A stretch of 45,058 nucleotides of DNA from an uncultured Ignavibacteriales bacterium (GTDB lineage Bacteria; Bacteroidota; Ignavibacteria; Ignavibacteriales; Melioribacteraceae): positions 1 through 45,058 of the forward strand of contig CAMZLW010000045.1 of NCBI GenBank assembly GCA_947311785.1, in the 5' to 3' direction. The position numbers and the translations under genes are program-made. Shown in pieces: positions 6,194 through 40,857 of this stretch (position 1 is its first letter; the number at the start of each line of letters is the position of its first letter). The notes under the pieces were generated by a model. That model did not search any database. It saw only the letters and a list, made by a program, of their open reading frames with translations, and was not told where the DNA came from.

Positions 6194-6331
6194 AGGGAAA
6201 GAAAAATAGGACGCTGAAAAAGAATGATTGTTCAAGAAAGAGTATGATGAAAAATGTAAATGAATCAGTGCAAATCTTGACCAATCATGAAAATCTGTTA
6301 CCTATTTTTTGAAAAACCTTTAAAAACAGAA

Positions 6332-6622
6332 TCAATGACGTTCAACCCAATAATCTGGTCTTCTGTGGTTATGAGAAATAGCTATAATATAAATGTAGTT
6401 TTCTTCCATTGAATAAAGGATTTTATAAGGGAATTTATGTAGTTGGTATCTTCTTATATCTCTTTTGATAATTGGAGATAGAGTTGGAAATTTTTTTATT
6501 CTAAGAACAGCAGATTTAACTTCTTGCTTAAAACGATTTCCCAACCCCTTTTGTTGTAGCTCGTAAAAATCAATTGCATCCGAAAGTTCAAAATCTGCAA
6601 GATTGTCAAAAAGAATATTCAT
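6332..6622 (-). CDS. RelE/ParE-family toxin
   Basis: A 96-residue protein of the RelE/ParE fold, the toxin half of a type II toxin-antitoxin pair. Visible family features are ADFELSDAIDFYELQQKGLGNRFKQEV at the start, a KFPTLSPIIKRDIRRYQLHKFPYKILYSM middle strand pair, and the C-terminal AISHNHRRPDYWVERH, which resembles the ending of many ParE-like toxins. Its ATG lies one base after the stop of the upstream antitoxin, so the two are translationally coupled. Whether it acts on ribosome-bound mRNA (RelE) or DNA gyrase (ParE) cannot be told from the sequence. The pair sits between citF and the patatin gene. Confidence 0.85.
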   Translation of the reverse strand: MNILFDNLADFELSDAIDFYELQQKGLGNRFKQEVKSAVLRIKKFPTLSPIIKRDIRRYQLHKFPYKILYSMEENYIYIIAISHNHRRPDYWVERH

Positions 6623-6623
6623 A

Positions 6624-6836
6624 TTAAGAATCTTCTTGAAAAATATCTCTAAAAGGAACGGAAGAAACTGGATTAAGTCTATGTGCTTTTAATCTTTTTT
6701 CAGCCTCATCTACCCAGACAGCATCAAGCTCAAGATTAGGTTCATCAATTGTTTTAATGAGATTGTCAATTAACAAAAAACGTTCACGTCTGTTTAATTG
6801 AATTGCTTCTTTTAATAAACTTTTAGTAGTGCTCAT
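6624..6836 (-). CDS. Antitoxin, addiction module component family
   Basis: A 70-residue antitoxin of the short 'addiction module component' family (TIGR02574-like), usual partner of ParE/RelE-type toxins. The signature is the helical N-terminal part (LLKEAIQLNRRERFLLIDNLIKTI) followed by VWVDEAEKRLKAHRLNPVSSVPFRDIF, where the tail wraps the toxin. The start at 6836 is preferred because AGAGG lies six bases upstream; ATG at 6842 would be too close to it. The longer frame to 6902 is hydrophobic and lacks a start context. It stands 62 bases behind citF on the same strand, and could be read from that operon as well as from its own promoter. Confidence 0.82.
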   Translation of the reverse strand: MSTTKSLLKEAIQLNRRERFLLIDNLIKTIDEPNLELDAVWVDEAEKRLKAHRLNPVSSVPFRDIFQEDS

Positions 6837-6898: not shown

Positions 6899-8464
6899 TC
6901 AATAGTATTTTTTCTCAACCTTAAAAACAGAGTCAATAACAGTTCCATCAACCCATTTGATGATTGCCACTACTTCATCTTTGTTCACTTTGGGTTTGGC
7001 TGGTTTGCCTCCACAGATATCATTTACTTCTTTATAAATTTCTTTTATTGGTTTAATTGGAAGTCCACTTCCTTCTACGGCTTTTAGTAAATCTTTTCTT
7101 TTTGGATTTATAGCAATGCCACGCTCGGTAACAATAACATCAACCAATTTGCCAGGAGCAACAAGTGTTGTTACTTCATCCACAATTACTGGTATCCTAT
7201 CTCGGAAAGATGGAATTGCGAGAATTACAGTTTTACCAAACATACAATTTTGCCATCCACCAATGCCGTGTAGTAAATATCCATCGGAGTGTGTTACAAC
7301 ATTTGCATTAAAATTAATATCAACTTCAGTAGCACCAAGCACAACGGCATCAAGCATTGAGGCAAAATTTCCTTTGCCGTGAAAGTTATAACTTGTAAAC
7401 GGACTTGTGTTTAAGTGTCCACTATTTTCACGCATTGAACGAACGCCTTCAAGGTCGAAGGTTTGCCCGTCTAGAATGTAATCGGTTAAACCTTCCTCTA
7501 ACATTTCAACAAGATACTTTGTGCTTCCGCCGCGGATAAATCTTGCTTTGATATTCTTTTTTATCATTTTCTCTTTTAGATAAAGGGCGAAAGCAAGGTT
7601 TGTTCCACCAGCACCAGCTTGGAAAGAGAATCCATCTTTTAAAATCCCAGAATGTTCTAAAAAGTCTGCAACATATTCGGCAATTAAAAGTCTATCCGGA
7701 CTTTTAGTAACATGTGTTGTTCCAGAAACAATTTTAGCAGGGTCGCCAAGCGATTCTACCTCAACCACATAGTCAACATTGTTACCTTGAATTTGCCAAG
7801 GCGAACAAGGAAAGGGAATAAGATTATCTGTAACTACAATAACACTATCGGCATATTCAGAATCAGCGAGAGCAAAGCCAAGCAGACCGCATGCCGATTT
7901 ACCTCTGTCACCAGTAGCATTTCCAAAAGGGTCAGCAGTTGGAGCAGCAATAACTGCTATATCCACATGCACATAGCCATCTTGAATTGATTGATATCTT
8001 CCGCCGTGAGAACGAAGAACTCCCACACCTTTCATTTTTCCCTCGGAAGTATAACGCCCAAGTGGGCCGTTCATAGAGCCTTCAATATGATGGATAGTGC
8101 CGTCATCCAAATATTTTATTAAATGCTCATGAACGGGAAAAGACGCACTTGGGAACCAACGGATATTTTTAATACCCATTTTTTTAATTGTATCAAAAAG
8201 AATATTTGTAAGTACATCTCCATTTCGTAAATGGTGATGGGTTGAGATTGTCATGCCATTTTTAAGTCCAGCTTTTTTAAGAGCTTCGCGTAAATTTTTT
8301 GCAACCTTGTTCCCATTATCTGGATAGTCTGTGCAGCTCTTAATCTTGGCACCATATTTATTTCCAGTAGGTTTATATTTATTAACTCCTTTGTATGGAA
8401 TTACTTTTTTACCGTTTACTTCTGTGGGGACTAAGCGTCCGGCTGCATTTTTTATTAGTTTCAT
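6899..8464 (-). CDS. citF: Citrate lyase alpha subunit (citrate:acetyl-ACP transferase)
   Basis: Family member of CitF, the cytoplasmic CoA-transferase-like subunit that exchanges the acetyl group on the acyl carrier subunit for citrate. At 521 residues it has the full family length. The chain opens with NAAGRLVPTEVNGKKVIPYKG as CitF proteins do, and continues through ISTHHHLRNGDVLTN, EGSMNGPLGRY, AAPTADPFGNATG and a late IVDEVTTLVAPG and VTERGIAINP. It is separated from the fused CitD-CitE gene by a four-helix-bundle gene. The ligase (CitC) and prosthetic-group genes (CitG, CitX) are not in the window. Citramalate lyase has homologous subunits, so the true substrate could be citramalate or a methylated citrate. 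Confidence 0.92.
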   Translation of the reverse strand: MKLIKNAAGRLVPTEVNGKKVIPYKGVNKYKPTGNKYGAKIKSCTDYPDNGNKVAKNLREALKKAGLKNGMTISTHHHLRNGDVLTNILFDTIKKMGIKNIRWFPSASFPVHEHLIKYLDDGTIHHIEGSMNGPLGRYTSEGKMKGVGVLRSHGGRYQSIQDGYVHVDIAVIAAPTADPFGNATGDRGKSACGLLGFALADSEYADSVIVVTDNLIPFPCSPWQIQGNNVDYVVEVESLGDPAKIVSGTTHVTKSPDRLLIAEYVADFLEHSGILKDGFSFQAGAGGTNLAFALYLKEKMIKKNIKARFIRGGSTKYLVEMLEEGLTDYILDGQTFDLEGVRSMRENSGHLNTSPFTSYNFHGKGNFASMLDAVVLGATEVDINFNANVVTHSDGYLLHGIGGWQNCMFGKTVILAIPSFRDRIPVIVDEVTTLVAPGKLVDVIVTERGIAINPKRKDLLKAVEGSGLPIKPIKEIYKEVNDICGGKPAKPKVNKDEVVAIIKWVDGTVIDSVFKVEKKYY

Positions 8465-34432: not shown

Positions 34433-35668
34433 TTACCCACCAAAATCATCGAGCATAATGTTTTCGTGTTCAACACCAAGGTCTTCTAGCATTTTAATTA
34501 CTGCTGCGTTCATCATTGGAGGTCCGCACATATAGAACTCGCAATCTTCAGGTGCTGGATGATTTTTAAGATATTCATCCAAAAGTACTTGATGAATAAA
34601 TCCAGTCATTCCTTCCCAGTTATCTTCTGGTTGAGGTTCAGATAGAGCCAAATTCCAAGTGAAATTTTCATGCTTTTCTGCTAATTCATCAAATTCTTCG
34701 TTATAAAAAGATTCACGCAAACTGCGTGCACCATACCAAAATGATATTTTCCGTTTTGAGTTTAATCTTTTCAATTGGTCAAAAATATGTGAACGCATTG
34801 GAGCCATACCTGCACCACCACCTATAAATACCATTTCTGCATCTGTTTCTTTTGCAAAAAATTCTCCATAAGGCCCCGAAATAGTTACAGTATCGCCTGG
34901 TTTAAGATTAAAGATAAACGATGACATTTGTCCAGGTGGTACATCGGGCATACGTGGTGGGGGAGAGGCAATACGCACGTTTAACATAACCATCCCTTTT
35001 TCTTCGGGATAACTAGCCATTGAGTATGCACGTAAAACGGGTTCTTCAACTTTAGATACAAATTGCCATAAGTTAAATTTATCCCAATCAGCTTTATATT
35101 CATCTTCAATAATAAAGTCGGAATATTTAACTGTGTGTGCAGGAGCTTCAATTTGGATATAACCACCAGCACGGAAATCGACATTTTCGCCTTCTGGTAA
35201 TTCCAGTATAAGTTCTTTAATAAATGTAGCAACATTTTTATTTGAACGAACTTTGCATTCCCATTTTTGGATATCAAAAATTTCTGGTTCAAGTTCAAGT
35301 TTCATATCGTTCTTAACAGGAACTTGGCACGAAAGACGATAACCTTCTTTAATTTGCCCACGGGATAATTTACCTGTTTCTGTTGCAAGAACATCGCCAC
35401 CACCTTCGGCAACTATACATTTACACTCACCACAAGTTCCTTGTCCGCCACATGCCGAGGGAAGATAAATACCCGCATCGCCAAGTGAATAAAGAAGTTT
35501 ATTGCCAACCGGAACTTCAATTGTTTTTTCCGGATCATCGTTTATTTCAATTTTAGCATTACCTGTAGCCACTAATTTTGACTTAGCAAGTAATATTAAT
35601 AATACTAAGGCAATAACAATAACAATAAACATTACAACGCCAAGTATAATTAAATTTATTCCATCCAT
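34433..35668 (-). CDS. nqrF: Na+-translocating NADH:quinone reductase subunit F
   Basis: The entry subunit of the NQR complex, taking electrons from NADH to FAD and a [2Fe-2S] centre, at the cytoplasmic face of the inner membrane. One N-terminal membrane segment (about 4-28), then a ferredoxin domain with Cys73, Cys79, Cys82 and Cys114 ([12 protein letters not shown]...RLSC), FAD binding RAYSMASYP, and NADH binding [12 protein letters not shown], with GARS and CGPPMMN. The start at 35668 is favoured over the longer frame because AAGGG lies eight bases upstream and gives the right N terminus. It is the last gene of the operon; a terminator lies downstream. Confidence 0.96.
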
Positions 35669-35678
35669 TAGTAAACCC

Positions 35679-36290
35679 TTATAATTGAATTCCAGAAAAT
35701 AACATAAATGCAATAGCCATTAGGCCAGCTGTAATAAATGTAATACCAAGTCCGCGTAAGCCTTCAGGCACATTGCTGTATTTCATTTTTTCGCGAATAC
35801 CAGCAAGAGCAACAATAGCAAGTGCCCAACCAAAGCCAGAACCAAAACCATAAACAACCGATTCACCAAAGTTATAATTACGTTCAACCATAAATAGAGA
35901 GCCACCAAGTATAGCACAGTTTACTGTAATTAAAGGAAGAAAAATTCCAAGCGAATTGTAAAGGGAAGGAACGTATTTATCTAATATCATTTCTAAAATT
36001 TGAACTATTGCAGCAATTACACCAATATAGGTAATTAAACCAAGAAATGTTAAATCGACACTTTCAAGACCAGCCCACGCGAGCGAACCTTCTTTTAGAA
36101 CGTTTTGATAAATTAAATTATTTACAGGTACTGTAATGGCTTGCACAAAAACAACAGCAATACCAAGACCAATTGCTGTATCAACTTTTTTGGACACTGC
36201 CATAAAAGTACACATTCCAAGAAAGAATGCAAGAGCCATATTTTCGATAAATATGGATTTAACAAATAAACTTAAATAATGCTCAATCAT
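35679..36290 (-). CDS. nqrE: Na+-translocating NADH:quinone reductase subunit E
   Basis: Integral inner-membrane subunit with six segments; it and NqrD hold a [2Fe-2S] centre at their interface. [21 protein letters not shown] carries the conserved cysteine, and [17 protein letters not shown] the second. 203 residues is normal. GGAGGAAAAATAATT inside the end of nqrD supplies a strong ribosome binding site. The gap to nqrD is two bases, and to nqrF 10 bases. Confidence 0.95.
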
Positions 36291-36292
36291 AA

Positions 36293-36919
36293 TTATTTTT
36301 CCTCCACTTGTTCTGGATAGAATGTTCTAAGCACCCAGATAAACATTGCAATTAAGAAAAAGGCACTAGGAGCAAGTAACATTAAACCATTACCTTGGTA
36401 CCACCCACCGTCTGTTGTTAGTGGAAATATTGAAATACCAAAGAATTTACCAGAGCCGAATAATTCTCTCATAAATCCAACAACCAAAAGAATAACTGCA
36501 TAACCCAATCCATTACCAACACCATCCATAAAACTTTGTAATGGAGGATTTTTTAAGGCATATGCTTCGGCACGCCCCATTACAATACAGTTTGTGATTA
36601 TTAGACCAACATAAACTGAAAGCTGTTTACTTACATCGTAAGCAAAGGCTTTAATAAATTGGTCGGCTATAATTACAAGCGAGGCAATAATTGTCATTTC
36701 AACAAGTATTCTTATGCTACTAGGTACATAATTACGAATTAAACTAACAAACAGATTTGAAAATGCGACAACAACAGTTACCGCAAGCGACATAACCAGT
36801 GCAGTTTCCAATTTTGTAGTAACAGCCAAAGCCGAGCAGATACCAAGTACCTGTAGTGTAATTGGGTTGCTTTTAAAAATTGGGTCAAATAAAATTTCTT
36901 TATATTTCACTTTAGCCAT
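36293..36919 (-). CDS. nqrD: Na+-translocating NADH:quinone reductase subunit D
   Basis: Integral membrane partner of NqrE with six segments. [21 protein letters not shown] carries a metal-ligand cysteine, and [19 protein letters not shown] the second. The 208-residue length is usual. AAAGGAGGAAATA lies upstream of the ATG, within the end of nqrC, which overlaps it by eight bases. Order and overlap are those of standard nqr operons. Confidence 0.95.
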
Positions 36920-37709
36920 TATTTCCTCCTTTCATTTTTTTTAAGAAAGGACCATAGCCATTTTCACCGAGCCAAAATCTCACCAAGTTATTTACTCCAC
37001 GTGTTGTTAAAGTTGCACCAGAAAGACCATCAATTTGATATTTTGCATGAGTACTACCTCTATCTGCAATACCTTTTATTACTTCAATTTTAAGATTTCC
37101 ATCGGCATCAAATGCTTGTTTGCCTATCCATTGTCTTTTCCATTTAGGATTATCAACTTCGCCACCAAGCCCAGGAGTTTCGCCATGTTGATAGAAAGTA
37201 AACCCTTTGATAGTATGTAAATCTTTATCGAGAGCTATAAATCCGTAAAGCGTTGACCAAAGACCTTTGCCATATATAGGTAATATGAATTTACTAATAT
37301 TTTCATTTTCTTTAACAGTATAAACAACCATTGCTTTAGGTTTTCTTTTTATACCTGCGATGTCATTATTTTGAGGTATATCTTCGCCCCATTTTAAACT
37401 ATTAGCCATTTCTTCAACATTGAAATCATCTACATTACATTGAGCATCATATTTTTTTTCTGGAATTGTTTTACCAGTACGGATATCAATTATTTGTGAA
37501 GATATATTTTTTTTATAAGTTTTTTCAATATCAATTCCGTCCTTGTATAAATCGCCTGCAGCAAGTATATTTTTGAGTAAATCCAATTTTTTATTATTTG
37601 ATTGAATAGGATTTAATCCAACTGCAGCAGTTGAAACAAGTATTGAAGCTACAAAGCAAACTCCAAGAGCAACTAATAAAGTTTTTTTAGTGCTATCTTT
37701 TTTAGCCAT
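36912..37709 (-). CDS. nqrC: Na+-translocating NADH:quinone reductase subunit C
   Basis: Periplasm-facing subunit that carries a covalent FMN. One N-terminal membrane segment (about 9-28: [21 protein letters not shown]), then a soluble domain that includes [19 protein letters not shown] and the flavinylation motif DGLSGATLT, in which Thr233 should receive FMN from an ApbE-type transferase; no apbE is in the window. The 265-residue length is usual. AGGAGG within the end of nqrB precedes the ATG, and the two genes overlap by eight bases. Confidence 0.95.
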
Positions 37710-38901
37710 TTCTCGCTAGCCTCCTTTTTATGTTTCCTTTAATAACAAATCTGTCAATAATTGGTGCAAAGACATTCATAAATAGAATTGAAAGCATCAT
37801 TCCTTCTGGAAATGCCGGATTTACAACTCTTACAAGAACAACAAGCACACCAATAAAGAAACCGTAATAATATTTTCCAATGTTTGTGAAAGTAGCAGAG
37901 ACTGGGTCTGTTGCCATAAATACAGCACCAAATGCAAATCCACCAAGTACAAAATGCCAAGCTGGAGTTACAGCAAACATTGGATTAGTTTCACTTCCAA
38001 TTAAATTAAATGTGAACGACATAACCACCATACCCACAACAACGCTTAGCATAATACGCCAAGAACCAATTTTTGTTATAATTAAAATTGCAGCTCCAAT
38101 TAAAATTGCAAGTGTGGATGTTTCTCCCATAGAGCCTGGAACAAGACCAATAAAAGAATCCCACCAAGAAACTGACACTTTCATTGCAGAATCGGCAAAC
38201 TGACTTAATGGGGTAGCCAAACTCATTCCGTCAATTGCTGCCCAAACCTTATCTCCAGAAATTGCTGCTGGATATGCAAAGAACAAGAATGCTCTTCCAG
38301 TTAGTGCTGGATTAAGAATATTCATTCCAACACCACCAAAAACTTCTTTACCAATCACAACGCCGAATGAAATTCCAATAGCAACTTGCCAGTAAGGAAT
38401 ATCTGGAGGAAGTATTAGTGGGAAAAGCATACTCGTTACAAAAAATCCTTCGTTAATTTCGTGCTTACGAATAACAGCAAACAGAACTTCCCAAAATCCA
38501 CCAACTGCAAGAGTAACAAGATAGATAGGGAAGAAGTAGAGAGCACCCAATACCATATTGCTTAAAATTGAAGTTGAGTCGAATGTGAGTCCGAGCCAAA
38601 GGAAAAATTGTTGTTGCCATCCAGTTGGCTCATAATTGGCAATACTTGCAATTCCGATATTAGATTGGAAACCAGTATTATATAATGCCATAATTATTGC
38701 TGGAATAAGGGCATAAATTACCGTAAGCATCATTCGCTTTAAATCCAAAGCATCGCGAACGTGCGAACCTTTTTGGGTAACTTTGCCCGAGGTGTAAAGC
38801 AGAGTATCAACCGCTTCAAAAAGAGGATAAAGTTTGGGAAACTTTCCGCCTTCCTCAAAGTGTTTACTTTGCTTATCTAAAATGTTTCTAAGAAATTTCA
38901 T
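37702..38901 (-). CDS. nqrB: Na+-translocating NADH:quinone reductase subunit B
   Basis: Large membrane subunit of NQR with about ten segments, a covalent FMN and the path for sodium. The N-terminal [62 protein letters not shown] and [13 protein letters not shown] are family blocks. The flavinylation site is DGMSLATPL: the aspartate, alanine and Thr230 are conserved, but the usual glycine of SGAT is a leucine. The 399-residue length is near normal. A toxin-antitoxin pair lies between this gene and nqrA, ending 14 bases upstream of the ATG. Confidence 0.95.
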
Positions 38902-38915
38902 TTAATTGTAATCCT

Positions 38916-39233
38916 TTAGTTTATTTCTTCCATCTTTTTTGGATTTTGTCTTGTGTCAAATACGTTAGTAATTTCAATTCGTCCTTTGCCTAAATTTATC
39001 CAATAAATAATTTTGTAATTTTTATATACTAAATACATGAACTCCTGCTCGTATTTTTCTAACAATATTTCTTTCTGACCTATGTATGGATTATCTTGAA
39101 TCTCTATTGCTTTATCAATTATACCATTTACTAATTTTTTAGCAATGGAAATATTAACTGTTGTTTCATAATAGATAAAAATATCATCCAACATGCTCTC
39201 AGCTAATCTTGTCCAATAAACTTCTAAATTCAT
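38916..39233 (-). CDS. RelE/ParE-family toxin within the nqr operon
   Basis: A 105-residue type II toxin of the RelE/ParE fold: VYWTRLAESMLDDIFIYYE (first helix with W-T-x-x-A), a helical IAKKLVNGIIDKAIEI, then IGQKEILLEKYEQEFMYLVYKNYKIIYWI and a C-terminal ITNVFDTRQNPKKM. The last part matches the typical F-D-x-R-Q-N-P ending of the family. The ATG shares its first base with the antitoxin stop (TAATG). It ends 14 bases ahead of nqrB on the same strand, so nqrB to nqrF are likely read through it. The target is unknown. Confidence 0.86.
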   Translation of the reverse strand: MNLEVYWTRLAESMLDDIFIYYETTVNISIAKKLVNGIIDKAIEIQDNPYIGQKEILLEKYEQEFMYLVYKNYKIIYWINLGKGRIEITNVFDTRQNPKKMEEIN

Positions 39234-39466
39234 TATACATATTTAGATTTTAAATCAACTGATTTAATTACTCTATCATTCTCTGAATCATTAAGGGATT
39301 GGTCAATTTCTTGATGAAATTTTTCCAAGCTCATTGGCTCAAGATTATTTTTATAAATATTGGATTTGCTTTTTTTTAAGAAAATCTCCAGTTCACTAAT
39401 AACTCCTTCATTTTGAATACGCAGAAACTCTTGAACAAATGATATTTTCCTTTCTTGCAAGTTCAT
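39233..39466 (-). CDS. Antitoxin partner of the nqr-inserted toxin
   Basis: A 77-residue acidic and lysine-rich protein placed directly before a ParE/RelE toxin and overlapping it by one base, which fits the antitoxin of the pair. The N-terminal helix QERKISFVQEFLRIQNEGVISELEIFLKKSK and the middle EPMSLEKFHQEIDQSLNDSENDRVI are typical of small antitoxins often seen in Bacteroidota. No DNA-binding domain is evident, so it may not regulate its own transcription. The gap to nqrA is 17 bases. Role inferred from place and general features. Confidence 0.75.
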   Translation of the reverse strand: MNLQERKISFVQEFLRIQNEGVISELEIFLKKSKSNIYKNNLEPMSLEKFHQEIDQSLNDSENDRVIKSVDLKSKYV

Positions 39467-39483
39467 TTTAACAATCCTTTCAA

Positions 39484-40821
39484 CTAACCTTCTTTTTCTA
39501 TTTGAGTTAAATTACGTCTTAAATTTTCTCCGTGGTTTACCTTTGATGGACAAACAAATGAGCAAAGTCCTAAATCTTCTTCGTCCAATTCTAAGCAACC
39601 AAGTTGTTCGGCTTCTTCAATATCATTTACTGCTAAAGCACGCAATAAGTAATTTGGAAGAATATCCAATGGCATTACAGCCTCGTAACTTCCTACAGGA
39701 ACTATTGCACGTACACCACCGTGGAGTGCTGTTGAAAAATTTAACTTTTTCTTTGGCATTACTACCGATTTAACTGAGAATCTATTTCCAAATGGATTTA
39801 CCCAACCGAAGAATTCTCTTTCTGAATCTTCTTCAATAACAGAAACTGTTTGATGATATCTTCCAAGATATGAAACGTAACTAGTAGCATGATGCCCAGT
39901 AAAGACGGAGCCAGAGATTATTCTGTTCTCACCATTTTTAAGTGCATCGGTAGTTAGCTCAGATAAATCTGTTCCAAGTTCGGTTTTAATTAATGTAGGT
40001 AGTTTTACTTGCGAACCACCAACTGCAATTACTCTATTGGTATCAATTTTTCCAGTTGTAAAAAGATTACCAATAGCAGCAACGTCCTGGGCATTTACAT
40101 ACCATACTTTTTTAGATGCACTTACCGGATTAAGAAAATGGATGTGAGTTCCAACCAAACCAGATGGATGTGGTCCTTCAAATTCTTCAACTTTTAATTT
40201 GTTGGAATTTATTGTAGGAACTTTTGAGCTTGGTGCTTTGCAGAGAAACACATTACCTTCGGTTAATCTCTCAAGCACTTTTAATCCGTTCTCAAATGCT
40301 TTCTCTTTTCCTTCAAGAATCTTTTCAATTGATGGGGCAAACGGATTTGAATCCATTGCTGTAACAAAAATTGAATTAGGGGTTGTTGCTGGGTCAGCTA
40401 CTTTTGAAAAAGGACGAACTCTTAGTGAAGTCCACACACCAGACTCAATTAAATTTTCTTTAACAGAATCGGAAGTTAAATTTGATAGCTCATTTTCGGA
40501 ATAACTTTTGAAAGTTATTTCATCTCTACCAGATTTTTCAATTACCATCGATTTAAAAGCTCTTTTTTCACCACGATTTATTTCAACAATTTTGCCAGTT
40601 GCAGTAGCAGTAAACTTAACTCCTGGTGTTTTTTTATCGGTAAAAAGAAGTTGACCTTTTTTTACCTCATCGCCAACAGCAACAAGCATTGTAGGCTTCA
40701 TTCCTACATAGTCGTCACCAAGTAAAGCTACTTTTTTTGTTAAAATTGTTTTTGAAATTTCTTGCTTCGGAGAGCCATTAAGTGGAAGGTCTAAACCTTT
40801 CTTTATCTTAATTTTTGCCAT
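39484..40821 (-). CDS. nqrA: Na+-translocating NADH:quinone reductase subunit A
   Basis: Cytoplasm-side subunit of NQR that has no cofactor; it binds near the ubiquinone site of NqrB. The start at 40821 gives MAKIKIKKGLDLPLNGSPKQ, the family's N terminus (KGLDLPI-GxP), followed by VALLGDDYVGMKPTMLVAVGDEV, GIVEINRGEKRAF-like repeats, and the conserved SGSVFTGHHATSYVSYLGRYHQ and the C-terminal LGCLELDEEDLGLCSFVCPSKV. The 445-residue length is usual. A TATCTTTG promoter element lies 28-36 bases upstream. NqrA is followed by a toxin-antitoxin pair instead of nqrB. Confidence 0.95.
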   Translation of the reverse strand: MAKIKIKKGLDLPLNGSPKQEISKTILTKKVALLGDDYVGMKPTMLVAVGDEVKKGQLLFTDKKTPGVKFTATATGKIVEINRGEKRAFKSMVIEKSGRDEITFKSYSENELSNLTSDSVKENLIESGVWTSLRVRPFSKVADPATTPNSIFVTAMDSNPFAPSIEKILEGKEKAFENGLKVLERLTEGNVFLCKAPSSKVPTINSNKLKVEEFEGPHPSGLVGTHIHFLNPVSASKKVWYVNAQDVAAIGNLFTTGKIDTNRVIAVGGSQVKLPTLIKTELGTDLSELTTDALKNGENRIISGSVFTGHHATSYVSYLGRYHQTVSVIEEDSEREFFGWVNPFGNRFSVKSVVMPKKKLNFSTALHGGVRAIVPVGSYEAVMPLDILPNYLLRALAVNDIEEAEQLGCLELDEEDLGLCSFVCPSKVNHGENLRRNLTQIEKEG

Positions 40822-40849: not shown

Positions 40850-40857
40850 CAAAGATA
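40850..40857 (-). promoter_or_regulatory. Bacteroidota-type -7 element TATCTTTG of the nqr operon
   Basis: On the minus strand TATCTTTG matches TAnnTTTG and lies 28 bases ahead of the nqrA ATG, giving a leader near 22 bases. A TTG at the -33 place is not clear. It is the only good promoter candidate for the whole nqr operon. Confidence 0.55.

Follow-up and report, generated by a model that had tools for sequence, protein, structure and literature searches.

Why should a toxin-antitoxin pair lie between nqrA and nqrB, the first two genes of the operon for the Na+-translocating NADH-quinone reductase, a sodium-pumping respiratory complex, and does it serve that complex or travel with it as a passenger? 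The question is raised by a 45,058-nucleotide stretch of DNA (hereafter the window) from an uncultured bacterium of the Melioribacteraceae, in which the nqr genes run on the minus strand in canonical order. The open reading frames of nqrA (39484-40821, stop codon TAG at 39484-39486; NCBIfam TIGR01936/NF003759) and nqrB (37702-38901, start codon ATG; TIGR01937) score far above the profile cut-offs, and the remainder of the operon, nqrC (36912-37709), nqrD (36293-36919), nqrE (35679-36290) and nqrF (34433-35713), follows without interruption. Between nqrA and nqrB lies a gap of 582 bp that is made up, in the direction of transcription, of a 17-nt spacer, an antitoxin gene, a toxin gene and a 14-nt spacer. 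The first spacer (TTGAAAGGATTGTTAAA, 39467-39483, minus strand) carries a Shine-Dalgarno-like AAAGGA and lacks a promoter element, and the second (AGGATTACAATTAA, 38902-38915, minus strand) joins the last bases of the toxin stop codon to form a similar AAAGGA in front of nqrB.

The identity of the two inserted genes agrees with the original prediction of a ParE/RelE-type toxin and its antitoxin at 38916-39466, joined by a TAATG overlap. Both reading frames are present on the minus strand, with the 105-residue toxin (38916-39233) and the 77-residue antitoxin (39233-39466) sharing the single base 39233. The toxin passes the Pfam ParE_toxin model PF05016 (E 7e-7, 30.2 bits against a cut-off of 23). 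For the antitoxin, profile searches of Pfam and NCBIfam gave no significant match; the N-terminus of this type of protein is typically MDLxTRKISFIQEFLRLQ, and its relatives are 43-63% identical to it (alignment A2). A contig search recognized such a relative directly upstream of the toxin in nearly all of the 80 toxin-homologous loci that were kept, and this persistent adjacency indicates that the pair is a real module. The AlphaFold2 model of the toxin (pLDDT 92.9) is most similar to ParE2 of the PaaA2-ParE2 complex (5czf; Z 15.0 and rmsd 1.4 across 90 residues); toxins of the RelE and YoeB types are more distant from it (Z about 11). Profile and predicted structure together place the toxin in the ParE/RelE fold and the pair among type II modules of the ParE superfamily. 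Proximity of a modelled fold to ParE does not, in itself, show that gyrase would be the target.

Comparison with related genomes demonstrates that the pair is a lineage-specific insertion between two cistrons, accompanied by a changed nqrB start. Across 34 further family genomes the distance from nqrA to nqrB is only -4 to +7 bp (34 of the 36 family occurrences are empty), and thus the 582 bp found here represent an insertion and not an ordinary spacer, as had been proposed from the window alone. Outside the family, the two genes are -19 to +213 bp apart in some 38 Bacteroidota genomes, with no gene between them; this includes the 213-bp gap of G239, in which no gene-like reading frame was found. 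Within the genus, two of five junctions are occupied and three are empty; none of the junctions in the other sampled genera is occupied. Empty junctions follow the pattern GAAAAGGAAGGTTAATTAAGTGAAATT, with a sequence resembling a ribosome-binding site for nqrB within the last codons of nqrA. The start codon of nqrB is GTG or, once, TTG in all 34 genomes with an empty junction, whereas it is ATG in both occupied genomes, namely our own and G001. Were the genomes independent, the chance of such a split would be 1/630, but related genomes are not.

An assembly artefact might in principle have fused nqrA, a foreign fragment and nqrB, and the assembly is indeed a draft of 181 contigs. Such an accident would hardly be expected to respect the stop and start codons exactly, as the insert does within a contig of 45 kb, or to change the start and ribosome-binding site of nqrB, and a second genome (G001) carries an insert at the same point. 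We regard this explanation as highly improbable. No terminal repeats and no transposon ends were found at the flanks of the insert. A target-site duplication was considered and rejected, as similarity between the right flank and the nqrA 3′ ends of three relatives did not exceed that of shuffled sequences (p 0.16-0.61 for anchored and about 0.8 for local alignments).

The pair was probably acquired by horizontal transfer, given that the toxin is missing from the other genomes of the family and has many homologues elsewhere in Bacteroidota. At E<=1e-8 no toxin homologue was detected in the 78 other family genomes; in the genome under study, contig C79 carries a second copy that is 39% identical. 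Among the 79 family genomes the antitoxin occurs only here and once in G001, where an orphan relative (51% identity; contig C91, L151:2524-2766) has no recognizable toxin gene behind it. The 80 homologous loci, in which toxin identity ranges from 43 to 65%, come from genomes nearly all labelled as Bacteroidetes or Chlorobiota, and the nearest relatives (57-65%) belong to Bacteroidota, Lutibacter among them, and to genomes with a Chlorobiota label. In none of these 80 loci is the pair next to nqrA or nqrB. The GC content of the insert is 0.26, compared with 0.36-0.38 for nqrA and nqrB. Searches of PLSDB and INPHARED for plasmids or phages carrying the pair gave no match at the limits used. An old linkage conserved throughout the phylum, an alternative named in the original prediction, is rejected, because the junction is empty in relatives both inside and outside the family.

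A repeat, GTTRGCAACAAGC, was observed some tens of nucleotides upstream of seven homologous pairs in other genomes (L039, L052, L078, L090, L099, L107 and L110), always in one orientation, with nine forward and no reverse hits compared with none in shuffled sequences. It is missing from the nqr site. The repeat is perhaps a cassette, integron-type or transposition site.

The second occupied junction holds quite different genes. G001, which belongs to the same genus and has an NqrB that is 93% identical, shows a gap of 2,973 bp between nqrA and nqrB, occupied by genes for a C5 cytosine methyltransferase, a protein with a GmrSD N-terminal (DUF262) domain and a HEPN protein (L115:6711-9526). In PADLOC the first of these resembles type II methyltransferases and the second resembles NsnA and PD-T4-2_A. 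This defense cassette is unrelated to the toxin-antitoxin pair and sits at exactly the same junction. About 180 bp upstream of nqrA, G001 also carries a restriction-type gene of the DUF6996/DUF6997 kind and an N6/N4 methyltransferase gene (L115:3433-5074); the same position in our genome is taken by a HIT-family gene.

Two unrelated cassettes in two of five genus members, with none in other genera, raise the possibility that the junction is a landing hotspot of the genus, at which modules are exchanged by recombination between flanks or by some other integration route. There is precedent in the alternation of mazEF and parDE at relA-mazG (PMC7167474), and different pairs also lie behind citF in our genome and in G001. 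Nevertheless, only two events are known at the nqr junction, and no shared flanking sequence, repeat or integrase was seen there. The citF evidence is weaker than that from nqr, as the spacer behind citF is long and variable in any case. Moreover, the branching of our genome, G001 and G003 is poorly supported (59-67 in trees of NqrA plus NqrB and of five genes), and thus both insertions could go back to a single ancestral change at this site. We consider a hotspot rather unlikely, while giving it some weight; it concerns the arrival of the pair and is compatible with the explanation that we prefer below.

How the pair is transcribed appears to follow from what its relatives have and it lacks. 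The -7 promoter consensus of Bacteroidetes, TANNTTTG, is documented (PMC6847099), and in 70 of 78 homologous pairs this element is found 22-39 nt, mostly 23-25 nt, before the antitoxin (2.9% in shuffles). It is absent from the 120 nt upstream of the antitoxin studied here, and the pair cannot have brought it along because only 17 nt separate the antitoxin from nqrA. On the coding strand, the sole such element between 41100 and 36000 is TATCTTTG (40850-40857, minus strand), a predicted -7 element of the nqr operon located 28 nt before the nqrA ATG; a -7 element also precedes nqrA in G001, G002 and, in the form TATGTTTG, in G032. A scan of the minus strand from nqrA to nqrB gave no terminator-like site, nor was there one in the stretch between nqrA and the pair, where a strong terminator would have spoken against the dependence originally proposed. 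With no other TANNTTTG in 5 kb and no terminator, the pair is likely transcribed from the nqrA promoter and expressed only together with the respiratory complex. Read-through across the pair is also the simplest reading for nqrB to nqrF, which need a promoter and have no other visible one; the suggestion that these genes depend on the nqrA promoter is in this respect supported by the sequence. Two sigma-70-like matches occur inside the toxin gene (39145 and 39118), in a number not above that in shuffled sequences, and an internal promoter for nqrB within that gene is possible.

Alternatively, the pair could have a promoter of its own in the 3′ end of nqrA and behave as an ordinary autonomous, autoregulated operon. 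Type II pairs are mostly autoregulated (PMC7167474), and promoters arise easily by chance in AT-rich DNA. What makes this explanation unlikely is that neither nqrA nor the 120 nt before the antitoxin contains TANNTTTG, while 70 of 78 homologues have the element at a nearly fixed distance. The missing promoter lowers the claim of autonomous regulation and leaves the assignment to the toxin-antitoxin family as it was.

Whether the toxin is still potent bears on what the arrangement could mean. In an alignment of 49 sequences, made without L090 because of a stop codon in that locus, every invariant column is retained in the toxin, and both reading frames are intact. At residue 66, by contrast with Arg66 in 48 of 48 compared homologues, the toxin has methionine (R66M). 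If real, this substitution may weaken the toxin, and reduced or even absent activity would be the implication. An Arg codon and a Met codon can differ by one base, as they would here, so that R66M depends on a single assembled base and an assembly error is possible.

In the original prediction, a cell that lost the operon would be left exposed to the toxin. According to this scenario the pair guards the operon: when nqr is lost or silenced, the antitoxin would not be renewed, the stable toxin would be freed and division would stop. The promoterless position under the nqrA promoter, the intact reading frames and the retention of all invariant alignment columns count in favor of such a guard. 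However, the residue that might matter for potency, present in all 48 compared homologues, has been lost, three other members of the genus and all other sampled genera keep nqr unguarded, and the other toxin-antitoxin pairs of the genome adjoin unrelated genes. An addiction scenario is thus possible and not favored, in view of R66M and a toxin that may be weakened, and we judge a guarding role to be decidedly unlikely; that part of the prediction is not supported.

We favor instead, with good though not complete confidence, the explanation that a foreign and promoterless pair was inserted exactly between the nqrA stop and the nqrB start and is now a co-transcribed passenger of the nqr operon. 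A ParE-type pair of a kind that is widespread in Bacteroidota and not native to this family would have been gained horizontally and placed between nqrA and nqrB, leaving behind the promoter carried by its relatives. Antitoxin and toxin would then be translated from the message that starts at the nqrA promoter, and nqrB, uncoupled from nqrA, would rely for translation on an ATG and a ribosome-binding site of its own. The insertion was presumably tolerated because the genes are codirectional and free of a terminator and both neighbors are intact. Co-transcription, horizontal transfer and the status of a passenger, rather than of a part with a role for the complex, are what we infer from the sequence comparisons.

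The nqr pair is not the only one in this genome with codirectional neighbors. A PF05016 search of the genome identified 12 places, and with the nqr and citF pairs we count 14 pairs, nine of which have both neighbors in the same direction. The pair behind citF, which had been placed in a metabolic operon, is real: its antitoxin (6624-6836, minus strand) matches PF09720 (E 9.2e-11), and directly after it comes a toxin gene (6332-6622, minus strand) that is RelE-like by sequence pattern and has no Pfam match. It is followed by a separate patatin-like gene and thus has a cit gene on one side only. The end of intact citF is at 6899, and a displaced copy of its 3′ end with the following spacer is found at 6302-6349 (minus strand), at and after the end of the second toxin, whose C-terminus overlaps the copy. 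When this copy was aligned locally to the citF 3′ ends of G002, G003 and G004, none of 2,000 dinucleotide shuffles did as well. At citF, then, about 45 bp of target sequence were duplicated on insertion, and no such duplication was measurable at nqr. Behind citF in G001 lies another pair (L252:3186-3732), RelB/YafQ-like by eye, with a palindrome, TACACCATATGGTGTA, upstream.

A further respiratory operon of the genome is occupied as well. The ccm operon on contig C79 (L152:3418-5041) contains two pairs, one between ccmD and ccmE and one between ccmE and ccmF, where relatives have gaps of about -3 to 22 bp and about 11 to 92 bp, respectively. One of the pairs is related to the nqr pair and the other is RHH/RelE-like; the frame of the second toxin may be broken. 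Evidence for a target duplication at the ccmD site is borderline (p 0.036-0.10). An IS or MITE was considered as well and rejected: the hairpin GACATTCTGCGGAATGTC, which lies near ccmE, occurs in just two exact copies genome-wide, and the window contains no copy. In G003 (L168), where the contig extends only 130 nt upstream of ccmE, no ccmD was found in that stretch, and an insertion there too is possible. These cases indicate that toxin-antitoxin modules can occupy core respiratory operons such as nqr and ccm while leaving the neighbors intact. A far-reaching proposal would be that the nqr junction is a true exchange site for toxin-antitoxin and defense modules, that the pair has been co-opted to guard or regulate, its dose following nqr expression, and that the ccm pairs follow the same pattern. 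We hold this combination to be quite improbable; if true, it would mean that toxin-antitoxin modules are wired to respiratory operons.

The individual components of the locus have known counterparts. PaaA2-ParE2 and ParDE (5czf, 6xrw, 3kxe) share the ParE fold with the toxin described here, from which they differ in sequence (26% identity) and at R66M, and the antitoxin belongs by sequence to another, unnamed family. Closer are the pairs of Bacteroidota genomes such as Lutibacter, Christiangramia and Flavobacterium (L035-L114), which combine PF05016 toxins with antitoxins of 77-80 residues in the same families and gene order; nearly all of these have TANNTTTG upstream and none is beside nqrA or nqrB.

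As to position, a recent review treats two E. coli pairs, mazEF (within relA-mazG) and yafNO (within dinB-yafP), as insertions into intercistronic regions, and reports that parDE occupies the relA-mazG gap in Salmonella; how such systems integrate or choose their sites was not settled as of 2020 (PMC7167474). All three resemble the nqr pair in being type II pairs in an operon gap, with the operon intact in strains that lack them, and relA-mazG also resembles the nqr junction in that one gap holds different pairs in different species (PMC7167474). The present case differs in its host operon, the respiratory nqr, in the absence of the usual promoter motif, and in the occupant of the sister junction, a methyltransferase/GmrSD-N/HEPN cassette. 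Another parallel is mazEF of Staphylococcus, which is transcriptionally coupled to sigB (PMC4885055). In mazEF-rsbUVW-sigB, as is suggested here, a toxin-antitoxin pair is coupled to host genes through read-through. However, the Staphylococcus mazEF comes first and lends its promoter to the host genes, whereas the nqr pair follows the first host gene and probably uses the promoter of its host, and the Staphylococcus linkage is conserved in the genus (PMC4885055), which the nqr linkage is not. Toxin-antitoxin pairs inside operons are already known, and the nqr pair adds a respiratory host to them. It also provides, within one genus, a clear contrast of empty with occupied junctions, including one junction with two unrelated cassettes, and a pair that is without its usual promoter and has an altered start codon downstream.
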